Program-made: the position numbers and the translations under genes | From: an uncultured Bacteroidales bacterium | GTDB taxonomy: Bacteria; Bacteroidota; Bacteroidia; Bacteroidales; UBA932 | Direction of reading: 5' to 3' | DNA length: 40,415 bases | NCBI GenBank assembly: GCA_900318015.1 | Contig: ONJB01000018.1 | Location: forward strand, 1 to 40,415 | In this document: positions 28,511 through 33,472 of the stretch, one piece after another | Layout: each line of letters starts with the position of its first letter | Position numbering within the stretch: position 1 is the stretch's first letter | Notes under the pieces: generated by a model | The model's database searches: none | Told to the model about the DNA's origin: nothing | Seen by the model: only the letters and a program-made list of their open reading frames with translations

Positions 28511-28957
28511 ATGGAAATTTTGCTCAAGAAAGATGTGGCCAATCTCGGCTACGCTGGTGAGATCGTCAAGGTCAAGGCCGGTTATGCGATGAATTATCTC
28601 GTGCCGCAGGGCTTCGCCACCGTGGCCACCGAGTCCGTGAAGAAGCAGCACGCGGAGACCCTCCGTCAGCGCGCGCACAAGGAGGCCAAGCTCGTCGCCG
28701 ACGCCGAGGCCCTCGCCGCCACCATCAACGCGCAGGTTCTCGAGGTTGCCGCCAAGGTCGGTGAGACTGGTAAGCTCTATGGTTCCGTGACCACCGAGCA
28801 GCTCGCCGAGGCGCTCGCCGCCAAGGGCCTGAATATCGAGAAGAAGGACATCACCATCCTCGCCGCCGAGGTGAAGGAGCTGGGTGAGTACGAGGCCGCC
28901 GTGAAGCTCTACAAGGGTATCAAGGGCACCTTCAAGTTCAACGTGGTCGCCGAGTAA
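28511..28957 (+). CDS. rplI: 50S ribosomal protein bL9
   Basis: A large-subunit protein of 148 residues. MEILLKKDVANLGYAGEIVK and KAGYAMNYLVPQGFA form the conserved N-terminal rRNA-binding domain. A long charged helix follows (about 40-75), then the C-terminal domain with GKLYGSVTTEQLAEAL. It starts 8 nt after rpsR and ends the operon before a strong terminator. Confidence 0.97.
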   Translation: MEILLKKDVANLGYAGEIVKVKAGYAMNYLVPQGFATVATESVKKQHAETLRQRAHKEAKLVADAEALAATINAQVLEVAAKVGETGKLYGSVTTEQLAEALAAKGLNIEKKDITILAAEVKELGEYEAAVKLYKGIKGTFKFNVVAE

Positions 28958-28977
28958 TTTCGACCCCACAGACACTG

Positions 28978-29008
28978 AAATCCCGACCTCCCAAAGGTCG
29001 GGATTTTT
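28978..29008 (+). terminator. Rho-independent terminator of the rpsF operon
   Basis: AAATCCCGACCT (28978-28989) pairs with AGGTCGGGATTT (28995-29006) around a five-base loop, followed by T residues. It lies 20 nt after the rplI stop. Confidence 0.92.
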
Positions 29009-29063
29009 GTATATCTATTTGTGTATCAGGCGGATACGTTGCGAGAAATGAGAGGACCGATTA

Positions 29064-29095
29064 TTTGGTCAGATGGCCTCGGAAACGTAACTTTG
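29064..29095 (+). promoter_or_regulatory. Orphan consensus promoter in the rplI-fadD gap
   Basis: TTTG (29064-29067), exactly 20 nt, TAACTTTG (29088-29095): a full match to the Bacteroidetes consensus and one of the best in the window. No plus-strand gene follows. An imperfect dyad GACCGA/TTGGTC (29055-29070) overlaps the -33 box and could be an operator. Confidence 0.7.
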
Positions 29096-29099
29096 TGGC

Positions 29100-29190
29100 A
29101 GATACCTGCCGTCCGTTTCCGGTCGATCACTCGGGCCCGTCTGCCAGTGGGGTATTGAAAAAGGGGTTGATGGAAATCAGCCCCTTTTTA
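29100..29190 (+). ncRNA. Candidate small RNA, about 90 nt, unknown family
   Basis: The interval between a full-consensus promoter and a strong intrinsic terminator contains no reading frame of note and no gene on the same strand. The predicted RNA starts near 29100. GATACC (29101-29106) can pair with GGTATT (29151-29156) to close it, and an inner hairpin forms from CACT/AGTG plus GG/CC (29128-29134 with 29144-29149, one bulged C). The terminator stem follows 1 nt later. I do not recognise it as 4.5S RNA (no GGAAG-type loop), 6S (too short), tRNA or a known riboswitch. It is convergent with the acyl-CoA ligase gene. Confidence 0.5.
29158..29189. terminator. Bidirectional terminator (small RNA candidate and acyl-CoA ligase gene)
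   Basis: A 14-bp stem (29158-29171 with 29176-29189, one T-G pair) with a GGAA loop, A-rich on one side and T-rich on the other. It can stop plus-strand transcripts from the orphan promoter and minus-strand transcripts leaving the acyl-CoA ligase gene, whose stop is 4 nt away. Confidence 0.93.
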
Positions 29191-29193
29191 CAT

Positions 29194-30927
29194 TTATTCG
29201 TCCTTCGGCTTGTCGCCGCTTTCCTTATCGGAAGGTTCCGGTTTCTCGGGTTCGTCGCCGTGGGAGTCCTTGTACTTGAAGCGGCGGATCTTCTGGGTGG
29301 CGGTTTTCTCGAAGGGCTCCTTCATCGCATCGACCTCGCCGATCTTGGAGTTCTTGCCCACTTTCTTGTTGACCCAGTCCAGGACGGCCTTCTTGCGGGC
29401 TTCCAGCTCCTCGAACCATTTGTCCTCGGTGGCCTGGTCCCAATCGATGGCATTGTCCGTGAACTTGACGAGGGCGACGAGCTTTCCGTCGCGTTCCATC
29501 ACGAGGGATTCCTCCACGCCTTCGAAGTTGTTGATCACCTGCTCGATCTCCTCCGGGTAGATGTTCTCGCCGGAGGGGCCCAGGATGGTGTTGTTCAGAC
29601 GGCCCTTGATGTAGTAATGGCCGGTCTCGTCCACGGTGGCGATGTCGTTGGTGTGGAACCATCCTTCGTCGTCCAGGACCTGGAGGGTGCGCTCGGGATC
29701 CTTGTAGTAGCCCAGCATCACGTTGTCGCCGCGCACGACGATTTCGCCTTCTCCATTGGCGGGGTTCACGTTGTCCAGCCGGATATCGACCTTGTAGGTG
29801 GCGACACCGATGGAGCCGAGATGCTTCTTCTTGTCCACCATCACGTTGCATACGAGCGGGGCGGTCTCCGTGAGGCCGTAGCCGATGGCGTAGGGGAACT
29901 TGCACTCGATGAGGAACTGCTCCACCGCCGGATCCAGCTTGGCGCCGCCGATGCCGAAGAAAGCGAGCTTGCCGCCGAAGGTCTTCACCATCCGCCGGCC
30001 GATGAACCAGCGCAGGATGCGGGGGATGTGCTGGTCGGCCCAGGAGAGGACACGGCTCTTCTGGATCGTGGGGAGGACGCTGTTCTTGACCACCTTCTCG
30101 ATGATGAGCGGGACGGAGCACACGATGGTGGGCCGGACCTTCTTCATCGCGGCGAGGAGGATGGTGGGAGTCGGCGGTTTCTGGAGCGTATAGCAGGTTG
30201 CACCCACATAGAAGGAATACAGCGTGGACACGCTCATCTCATAGGCGTGGGCGGCAGGCAGGATGCTCAGGAAACGGTCTTTCTTGAAGGCGGGCTTGGC
30301 CTTGAAGGCCGCAGCCAGGTTGCTCGAGAGGTTGCGGTGGCTCAGCATCACGCCCTTGGCCTTCCCGGTGGTGCCGGAGGTGTAGATGATGCAGGCCAGG
30401 TCATCCGGCGCCGGGTCCTTCACCCAGCCGTTGCACTTGAAGTCCTCCTTGTTCTTCTTGAGGAACTCGAAGGTCTCGATGTCGATGATCAGGGTGAGCT
30501 TCGCCTTGCACTCCTCGCTCAGCTTGGGCATCATCCGCTTGGAGATGAAGATGGCCTTGGATTCGGAGTGGTTGAGGATGTTGGTGAGCTCGTGCTCGGA
30601 ACTGTCTGGGAGGACGGGGACCGCCACGCGGCCGAAGGCCGTGGCGGAGAAGAACGCGACGACCCAGTTGGGCATGTTCTGCGAGAAGATGGCTACGCGG
30701 TCGCCGTGCTTGATCCCGAAGCGGGACATCCGCTGGGACAGGCGCTCGGTTTTCGTGCGGAAATCCGCGTACGTATATTGCTGGCCGCCGTCCACGAACT
30801 GGTAGGCGATGCGTTTCGCATAGCTGGTGGTGGCGTAGTCAAAGACCTTGTGAAGGGTCGTACAGGTGTTCTCGCGGTATCTGTATCTCCGCCAGGCTTT
30901 GTAGGGACTCTTGATTTTCTTTGCCAT
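29194..30927 (-). CDS. AMP-dependent long-chain fatty acid CoA ligase
   Basis: An ANL-superfamily acyl-activating enzyme of 577 residues that adenylates a fatty acid and probably transfers it to CoA (ACP is possible). The P-loop-like YTSGTTGKAKG is at 182-192, followed by GYGLTETAPL, GWFHTNDIATV, and KGRLNNTILGPSGENIYPEEIE, which carries the hinge and adenylate contacts. The C-terminus is a long acidic/lysine tail rich in D, E, K and P that is not part of the enzyme core. It lies 17 nt after the PlsC-like acyltransferase gene, so the two may supply and use acyl groups. Confidence 0.92.
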   Translation of the reverse strand: MAKKIKSPYKAWRRYRYRENTCTTLHKVFDYATTSYAKRIAYQFVDGGQQYTYADFRTKTERLSQRMSRFGIKHGDRVAIFSQNMPNWVVAFFSATAFGRVAVPVLPDSSEHELTNILNHSESKAIFISKRMMPKLSEECKAKLTLIIDIETFEFLKKNKEDFKCNGWVKDPAPDDLACIIYTSGTTGKAKGVMLSHRNLSSNLAAAFKAKPAFKKDRFLSILPAAHAYEMSVSTLYSFYVGATCYTLQKPPTPTILLAAMKKVRPTIVCSVPLIIEKVVKNSVLPTIQKSRVLSWADQHIPRILRWFIGRRMVKTFGGKLAFFGIGGAKLDPAVEQFLIECKFPYAIGYGLTETAPLVCNVMVDKKKHLGSIGVATYKVDIRLDNVNPANGEGEIVVRGDNVMLGYYKDPERTLQVLDDEGWFHTNDIATVDETGHYYIKGRLNNTILGPSGENIYPEEIEQVINNFEGVEESLVMERDGKLVALVKFTDNAIDWDQATEDKWFEELEARKKAVLDWVNKKVGKNSKIGEVDAMKEPFEKTATQKIRRFKYKDSHGDEPEKPEPSDKESGDKPKDE

Positions 30928-31533: not shown

Positions 31534-33472
31534 CTAGATGTTTACGTCTTCGAGTTCCTCCTCGCTCCGGAGGTTTTCCATGATGAACCGCTGCCGTTCG
31601 GCGGTGTTGTCGCCCATGTAGAACTCCATGATTTCGGAGATGGATTCCTCGTCGGCCAGCTTGACCGGGTCCAGGCGCATCTTTTCGCCGATGAACTCCA
31701 CGAATTCGTGGGAGGAAATTTCACCGAGTCCTTTGAACCGGGTGATCTCCACACCGGTCTTCAGGTCCTTGACGGCCTTCTCTTTCTCATCGATGGAATA
31801 GCAGTAGCGGGTGGATTTCTTGTTGTGGACGCGGAAGAGGGGCGTCTGCAGGATATGGACGTGGCCGCGGCGGATCAGGTCCGGGTAATACTTCATGATG
31901 AAGGTGAGGACCAGCATCCGGATGTGCATGCCGTCGTCATCGGCATCGGTGGCGACGATGATGTTGTTGTAGCGGAGGTCGTCCAGGTCCTCCTCCACGC
32001 CGAGGGCGGAGACGAGCAGGTTCAGCTCCTCGTTCTCGGCCACCTTCTTCCGGCTTTCCTTGAAGCAGTTGATGGGTTTTCCGCGCAGGGAGAACACGGC
32101 CTGCGTGTTCGCGTTGCGGACCTTGGTGATGGTACCCGACGCGGAGTCGCCCTCCGTGATGAAGATGGAGGTCTTCTCCCGCTCGTCCTCCTTGTTCTTC
32201 AGCGGTTTGTCGTTGAAGTGGATGCGGCAGTCGCGGAGCTTGCGGTTGTAGACATTGGCCTTCTTGTTCCGCTCGCGGGTCTTTTTCTGGATGCCGGCGA
32301 TTTCCTCGCGCTCGGCCTGGGACTCCTTGATCTTCTTCTCGATGACCGGGACGATGTCCAGGTTCATGTGGAGGTAGTTGTCCAGGTTCTTGGACACGAA
32401 GTCGTTGATGAAGCTGCGGATGGTGGGGCCGCGGTCGATGGCGGAACTGCCGTCCTTGTTCTTCACCTGCCGTTCCCACATGTAGGTGGAGCCGAGCTTG
32501 GTCTTGGTCTGGCCTTCGAAGATGGGTTCCTGGATCTGGATGGCGATGGCGCCCACCACGCCCTGGCGCACGTCCTCGGGCTTGTAGTCCTTCTTGAAGA
32601 AGTCCTTGAAGGTCTTGGCGATGGCCTCGCGGTAGGCGGCGAGATGGGTGCCGCCGTCGCGGGTGTTCTGGCCGTTGGGTGTTCTGGCCGTTCACGAAGG
32701 AGGAGATGTTCTCGCCGTAGCTGTTCCCGTGGGTGAGGACGATTTCGATGTCCGGACCTTCGAGATGGATGAGCGGGTAGAGCGGCTTCTCGGACATGTT
32801 CTCGGTGACGAGGTCCAGCAGGCCGTTCTCGCTCTTGTAGGGCACGCCGTTCAAGACCAGGGTGAGGCCTTTCTTGAGGTAGGAGTAGTTCTTCACCATC
32901 GTCTCCACGATGTCCATGTGGAAGGAGTATCCTTCGAACATCTGCTCGTCGGGGACGAAGCGGATGATGGTGCCGTTTTTCTCGGTGGTTTCGCGGAGAC
33001 CGCTGTCGAGCAGGATGCCGCGGGAGTAATGGGCGAAAGAGGACTGGCCGTCGCGGAAGGATTCCACCCAGAAGTCGGAGGACAGGGCGTTCACGGCCTT
33101 GGTGCCGACGCCGTTCATGCCAACGGATTTCTGGAAGGCTTCCGTGTCGAACTTGCCGCCGGTGTTCAGCTTGGAGGTGACGTCCACCACGCTGCCGAGG
33201 GGAATGCCGCGGCCGAAGTCGCGCACGGTCACGGACTTGTCCTCGTCGATGGTGATGTCGATGCGCTTGCCGAAGCCCATCGAGAACTCGTCGACCGAGT
33301 TGTCGATGACTTCCTTCAGGAGGACGTAGATGCCGTCTCCCTGCCGCTCACCGTTGCCCAGGCGGCCGATGTACATGCCGGAACGTCTCCGGATGTGCTC
33401 GTACCACTCCAGGGTGATGATGTTCTGCTCGCCATAGTCGGCCCCGTTCTTCTTCAGCGTCTCTTCTGCCAT
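31534..33472 (-). pseudogene. parE: DNA topoisomerase IV subunit B, frameshifted by a 16-bp tandem duplication
   Basis: The ATPase subunit of the decatenating type IIA topoisomerase. The N-terminal part (33472 to about 32690) has YEHIRRRSGMYIGRLG, EVIDNSVDEF, DFGRGIPLG and GMNGVGTKAVNALS. The C-terminal part (about 32660 to 31534) has ITEGDSASGTITKV, DADDDGMHIRMLVL and ends ENLRSEEELEDVNI. The two lie in different frames. At 32661-32692 a 16-nt unit is present twice. Removing one copy restores SSFVNGQNTRDGGTHL and a single 640-residue ParE (1923 nt). As it stands, translation runs out of frame for about 250 codons, giving a 511-residue chimera without the TOPRIM domain. EGDSASG rather than EGDSAGG supports ParE over GyrB. 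An essential gene should not be broken, so assembly error or a minority variant must be considered. Confidence 0.9.
32661..32692. repeat. Exact 16-bp tandem duplication inside parE
   Basis: GGGTGTTCTGGCCGTT occurs twice head to tail (32661-32676 and 32677-32692) with no mismatch. Sixteen is not a multiple of three, so the extra copy shifts the frame of parE. Flanking sequence on both sides is in the correct ParE frame. Confidence 0.97.

Follow-up and report, generated by a model that had tools for sequence, protein, structure and literature searches.

Cis-encoded antisense RNAs with kissing hairpins act in plasmid copy-number control. Plant microRNAs are processed from hairpins. Plant microRNA genes, as two papers describe (PMC3237417, PMC5388894), have been born by inverted duplication of their target genes. 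Among bacteria, the sections consulted of a paper on SR1 of Bacillus subtilis (PMC8464778) present a trans-encoded RNA with several stretches complementary to the mRNA of the transcription regulator gene ahrC; the first contact is made 97 nt past the ribosome binding site. The example shows that pairing about 100 nt inside the message of a regulator can stop translation. For the phylum Bacteroidota, excerpts of PMC7366714 describe GibS of Bacteroides thetaiotaomicron, a small RNA of 145 nt that has its own start site, an extended pairing region and long single-stranded parts. Of its several targets, two are bound at start codons, and one predicted site lies deep in a coding sequence. The same excerpts state that Bacteroides has no obvious homologue of Hfq or ProQ, and the authors raise protein-independent action as a possibility.

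Here we analyse a locus in a stretch of 40,415 nt (the window) from an uncultured Bacteroidales bacterium, and we consider it likely that it gives rise to an antisense small RNA, about 90 nt long and encoded in trans, with its own promoter, that pairs with the mRNA of an araC-like gene and probably lowers the amount of the regulator protein. This target is the main addition to an earlier note on the same DNA, which named none. The likeness to SR1/ahrC concerns the mode of action only, and no common sequence or origin is claimed, the RNA described here resembling an inverted copy of its target; SR1 differs further in coding for a peptide and in acting on kinA as well (according to the same sections of PMC8464778). 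Like GibS, it would be a small RNA of Bacteroidota that is transcribed from a start site of its own and pairs over an extended region, but it is compact and one partner gene was found for it. With the plant microRNA genes mentioned above it would share the form of a regulatory RNA gene that is an inverted target copy, whereas it is bacterial, has its own terminator and involves no hairpin processing. Long complementarity and matching loops in RNA and target recall the plasmid copy-number antisense RNAs, from which it differs in that its gene lies at another locus than the target and the complementarity is partial.

Promoter, structure and setting of the RNA gene

The gap of 236 nt between rplI and the acyl-CoA ligase gene (28958-29193) contains a promoter-core-terminator unit at 29064-29189, with a promoter of the Bacteroidota type and a foldable core of about 57 nt (Table 1). 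The start of the RNA was placed 5-7 nt past the -7 box and its end at the terminator. Most of what the earlier note had described is present: the gap itself, a promoter of the form TTTG-N20-TAACTTTG directed at no gene, the next gene being convergent, and a near-perfect 14-bp terminator. The note had also proposed that the RNA closes on itself around one inner hairpin, and that a dyad at the -33 box suggests regulation. The closing strands can indeed pair, but the core holds two inner hairpins, and the dyad (GACC-N8-GGTC) is, by eye, perfect in G000 and G172 and in none of the other 11 genomes, so that regulation through it is not supported.

Table 1. Features of the RNA gene and its neighbours in the window
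Feature	Position	Strand	Basis or remark
rplI (ribosomal protein L9), upstream neighbour, synteny anchor	28511..28957	+	ORF list; orthologues
TGCGAG, possible regulator site, putative function	29040..29045	+	motif in relatives
-33 element TTTG	29064..29067	+	sequence, 13-genome alignment
-7 element TAACTTTG	29088..29095	+	sequence, 13-genome alignment
Predicted small RNA, about 90 nt	29100..29190	+	R1 match 29098-29161; both ends inferred
Core with closing stem P1 (29101-29107 with 29150-29156)	29101..29156	+	one UA-to-CG double change in relatives
Hairpin P2	29110..29125	+	fold, relatives' alignment
Hairpin P3, loop CCGUCU (29137-29142) inside GGCCCGUCUGC (29134-29144)	29128..29149	+	fold, relatives' alignment
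Terminator hairpin, 14 pairs then TTTTTACATTT	29158..29189	.	hairpin scan; on the - strand also 3' of the ligase
Acyl-CoA ligase, convergent neighbour	29194..30927	-	named from sequence and by eye

In a gap-free alignment of 13 genomes of the same genus, the -7 box reads TAnCTTTG, with T, A, C, T, T and T in 13/13 and the final G in 12/13; the boxes of 12 genomes had been located by the pattern TAnnTTT[GA], which all 12 contained and in which only the C was free to vary. The three T positions of the upstream TTTG are kept in 10, 13 and 12 of the 13 genomes and its G in 12. Farther upstream, a TGC[AG]AG box stands 48-50 nt before the -7 box in 11/13 genomes, the exceptions being G389 and G330, and may be a regulator site. 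Its reverse complement, CTTGCA, was seen by eye soon after the rplI stop in several relatives.

The hairpin scan found one terminator in 1.3 kb, compared with an average of 1.4 in shuffled sequences, and the terminator alone therefore proves nothing. It also lies directly 3' of the convergent ligase and may serve both the RNA and the ligase. The fold of 29093-29194 has a z of -3.80, mostly due to the terminator, and the core alone has a z of -0.24; folding energy is thus no evidence for the core, and the case must be carried by conservation.

Conservation of the RNA downstream of rplI

Rfam 15 gave no match at gathering thresholds in the whole window, and at E <= 10 the interval 28940-29260 gave six sub-threshold matches, none near its gathering score, in line with the earlier statement that no known family is recognisable. 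A DNA similarity search of the gap against 61 genomes, a sample without the closest relatives, returned besides the sequence itself only short matches with E of at least 0.005. The relatives of the host are rumen and gut Bacteroidales, several of them Candidatus Cryptobacteroides, probably the genus of the host as well; they are represented by metagenome-assembled genomes with incomplete contigs.

A model built from eight intergenic RNA cores only (R1) gave 12 strong matches under strict filters in 400 genomes of the same genus (E 1.4e-19 to 5.7e-13), and by the coordinates of rplI all of these RNAs sit just 3' of this gene. Measured against the core, R1 gives E values from 8e-15 to 2.6e-21 in 12 genomes, of which eight supplied the training sequences and four hold near copies of these. 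The relatives keep the place and strand of the RNA, its promoter, a closing stem of the GATACC...GGTATC type, GGCCCGUCUGC (in 12/12 RNAs of the rplI clade) and a terminator-like hairpin, which differs in sequence from one species to the next and has a short T tract in G092, G359, G389 and G318. A thirteenth genome, G330, carries a diverged version of the RNA after rplI.

Among 10 distinct rows of the alignment, stem pairing is kept in 98 percent of cells, compared with 96.3 in shuffles, one of 500 of which was as high. Double-sided changes affect 2 of 15 pairs (0.5 in shuffles; 19/500 as high), and further pair types show no excess (5, compared with 5.4). The covariation in the RNA is real and modest. 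The earlier note would have taken a promoter and stem that are not shared by near relatives as a refutation; both are conserved, which speaks in the RNA's favour, and the conservation of promoter, core and terminator hairpin makes a new small RNA appear well supported. As judged from these sequence features and their conservation, the gene is intergenic and has its own promoter and terminator, as expected of a small RNA.

Weak R1 matches in G189, G008, G346 and G035, the 4 of 19 that were read, lacked promoter and context and were judged to be chance. In G189, rplI runs off a broken contig end and the ligase flank gives no signal, with a z of 1.2; on contig C69 of this genome (L240), rplI ends after about 56-75 residues and is followed by other sequence, perhaps through a chimeric join.

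An antisense site within an AraC-like gene

R1 has a second match in the RNA-bearing genomes, with E from 5e-5 to 0.1 in 11 of the 12 and E 4.7 in the twelfth, and all 12 matches fall on the antisense strand of one orthologous AraC-like gene. In G000, the genome whose contig C52 is the window, this gene (C87:2908-3423) encodes a protein of 171 aa with an AraC-type helix-turn-helix (Pfam HTH_18, E 1e-12), and the RNA lies on C52; it is therefore no cis-encoded antisense RNA. The N-terminus of the protein is hydrophobic, reads by eye as a membrane helix and is perhaps a membrane anchor; a short AraC-type regulator of this form perhaps merits its own study. Two YitT/DUF2179 genes lie upstream in G000, where the order on C87 (L168:62-3423) is leuS-like end, yitT, yitT and araC-like; by eye, the gene order is similar in G330, G189, G240 and G018.

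At about codons 41-62, the araC-like mRNA resembles the reverse complement of the small RNA, though imperfectly, in a site that starts about 122 nt past the start of the ATG and includes the complement of GGCCCGUCUGC. At one position in a linker that is variable in sequence and length, GCAGACGGGCC is present in 12/12 RNA-bearing genomes and in 0/18 next-best orthologues, a contrast that amounts to few events because RNA and site coincide by clade. Read as whole codons, GCA GAC GGG, it is invariant in 12/12 genomes; this alone is not extreme, given that 43 of the 100 amino-acid-invariant degenerate columns of the gene use a single codon. Another part of the site, the GACAGGTG[TC]TGC codons, occurs in 13/16 sister araC genes, 10 of them without a known RNA and three (G156, G100 and G379) from genomes with an RNA at a second locus described below, and we consequently regard this part as ancestral coding sequence.

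In the predicted mRNA folds, AGACGG forms a hairpin loop in 5/12 (G092, G318, G255, G359 and G240) and not in G000. We rejected this loop as a general feature, and a loop-loop start of pairing is for this reason a suggestion only. On C60 of G100 (L330, about 1460-1485), CAAACCTGTCATACAGGAACAGGCAG is another stretch that resembles the antisense of DRCC codons, perhaps inside a related helix-turn-helix gene.

A second locus downstream of rlmI

A sequence profile of the antisense sites and RNAs (R2) was run on 24 genomes, and its best match was araC itself in each of them. In G379 it also matched, with E 0.002, a stretch at a contig end that adjoins an RlmI-like methyltransferase gene (named by eye). 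This stretch was read together with 19 weak R2 matches, part of those listed, and G379 alone led further.

When the sequence after rlmI was compared with each genome's own araC in 30 genomes, the match was clear in G379, G100, G156 and G207 (z 5.8 to 8.5; simple shuffles) and weak in G338 (z 3.0, the best rejected stretch being that of G330 at z 2.8). The other 25 stretches had z of 2.8 or less, including those of G000 and G330, where the RNA lies after rplI. G338 had first been spotted by its promoter; promoters were not used in picking G100, G156 and G207. By eye, TAnnTTTG stands just before the RNA in all four cases with visible upstream sequence, as TACCTTTG in G100 and G338, TAATTTTG in G156 and TACATTTG in G207, and an outer stem is possible in 4/5 of these RNAs, the predicted fold of G338 being different. 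Among 18 further araC regions, that of G170 had no recognisable site, and six others had no rlmI stretch to compare.

Linked change of the RNA and the araC-like gene

When the core was aligned with the antisense of the coding sequence from its own genome, 0/500 dinucleotide shuffles reached the score in each of 7 lineages. With simple shuffles, the match after rplI has z from 4.4 to 15.0 in the 7 lineages, and eight sister genomes outside the close clade show no comparable signal there (z -1.5 to 2.2). The best test of linked change is G330, since its RNA was located by place and promoter rather than by similarity. R1 misses it at E 1e-6 in the rplI locus and at E <= 10 in the genome (150 of 772 candidates scored). 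This RNA aligns with the antisense of its own araC at coding nucleotides 142-183, with a perfect 12-mer (0/500 shuffles), and the place in araC is the homologous site.

In a matrix of 12 lineages, the own pairs sum to 271, a value that none of 20,000 permutations reached (maximum 249). For the six lineages of the rplI clade, which were chosen without reference to araC, 42/20,000 permutations reached the own sum. For the other six the number is 67/20,000. Four of these six were chosen with help from the araC match, G100, G156 and G207 through the score of the own match and G379 through a profile that included its site, and their share of the whole permutation test is therefore biased. The own mRNA is not the best in every row, ranking fourth for G092 and second for G255, G389 and G338. 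By unrestricted duplex energy, 9/13 RNAs do better, with a lower energy, on the mRNA of another genome; these energies are inflated by long bulges and not own-specific, and were set aside as evidence.

At the level of sequence, the RNA and araC thus show linked change in several lineages. Because the two changed together across species, the RNA probably controls the regulator by pairing with its mRNA. It is encoded away from this putative target, and partial complementarity to it has been kept in evolution, with the caveat of how the rlmI set was selected.

Other targets and alternative explanations

The pattern GGCAGACGGGC begins with a G and for that reason does not capture the RNA of G389 and G318 or the araC of G389. 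It occurs 2 to 8 times per genome, and in G172 nowhere but in the RNA gene and in araC. Its 51 places in 12 genomes, compared with 76 for the reversed control, show no excess of seed sites. Among the 30 of these 51 places that were compared, the RNA and araC alone form groups of more than two members; the other seed sites, not orthologous beyond pairs, were rejected as shared targets. This result bears on the idea that the locus encodes a real, structured small RNA from an inverted araC-like copy that now acts elsewhere, on other mRNAs or a protein, its likeness to araC being mainly ancestry. In its favour, the fold is kept, the araC site is partly ancestral coding sequence, and several RNAs match their own mRNAs no better than those of relatives. 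We nevertheless regard it as rather unlikely, given the seed comparison, which covered matches to the whole pattern, and the complementarity kept where both partners have changed, as in G330 and in G207, the latter picked by its match.

It is very unlikely that the locus is a chance combination of promoter-like and terminator-like sequences or an unexpressed, decayed copy. The ordinary folding energy of the core and the number of terminator-like sites expected by chance would fit this, but in 12-13 genomes the surrounding sequence diverges while the promoter boxes, the stem and the loop persist, and nearly all stem changes preserve pairing. Less probable still is a transcript that belongs to the convergent ligase, as its antisense or through the terminator, acting on its 3' end or arising as its by-product. 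Both genes share the terminator, and only 4 nt lie between it and the ligase stop; against this, the RNA is kept in G255 and G240, which have no ligase match in the 1.5-kb flank, rplI and the ligase match lie 703 nt apart in G389, and similar RNAs follow rlmI in other genomes. We give the least weight of all to a short open reading frame or a riboswitch-like leader. There is a GTG frame of 45 aa at 29021-29158, but it begins upstream of the promoter and relatives show single-base indels in the core; as to a leader, the neighbouring gene runs towards the RNA, which therefore has nothing downstream that it could lead.

Proposed mechanism and origin

In the reading that we prefer, antisense control of the araC-like mRNA, the RNA would be transcribed from its own promoter after rplI and would pair in the cell over roughly 45-60 nt in the 5' third of the coding sequence, at about the codons given above. 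In the rplI clade, the P3 loop CCGUCU, as the perfect partner of AGACGG in the mRNA, would offer a natural start of pairing. The likeliest effect would be a lower level of the regulator protein, either because translation is blocked or because the duplex is cleaved, repression being the likelier sign. The site lies deep in the coding sequence, where regulation is less usual, and this counts against araC as the target.

An inverted copy of the araC-like segment was probably the source of the RNA gene. The RNA of G330 scores 12 to 16 with eight antisense sites outside the clade, the 99th percentile of the null being 13. A move between rplI and rlmI, or two births, would both be compatible with such an origin. 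A small RNA gene that is an inverted and displaced copy of its target, present at two loci in one genus and changing in step with one AraC-type regulator, would parallel, in bacteria, the birth of plant microRNA genes by inverted duplication, and this in a phylum in whose model genus neither Hfq nor ProQ is obvious; we put the chances of this whole picture at even. Among the titles of the matches listed in open-licence PMC literature on the origin of small RNAs from targets, AraC coding-region targets and Bacteroides small RNAs, there was no bacterial case of this kind, and the literature listed on Cryptobacteroides and small RNA consists of one paper, which concerns calf feeding.

How bacterial small RNAs come to match their targets is an open question; in the present case the target sequence seems in part to predate the RNA. 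The linked changes of the two partners can be traced in about a dozen lineages, which form a natural series of paired changes.

Elsewhere in the window, at 31534-33472 on the - strand, a gene that by eye resembles GyrB/ParE reads as two overlapping frames, one of 345 aa and one of 511 aa; a frameshift or a mistake in assembly would explain this.
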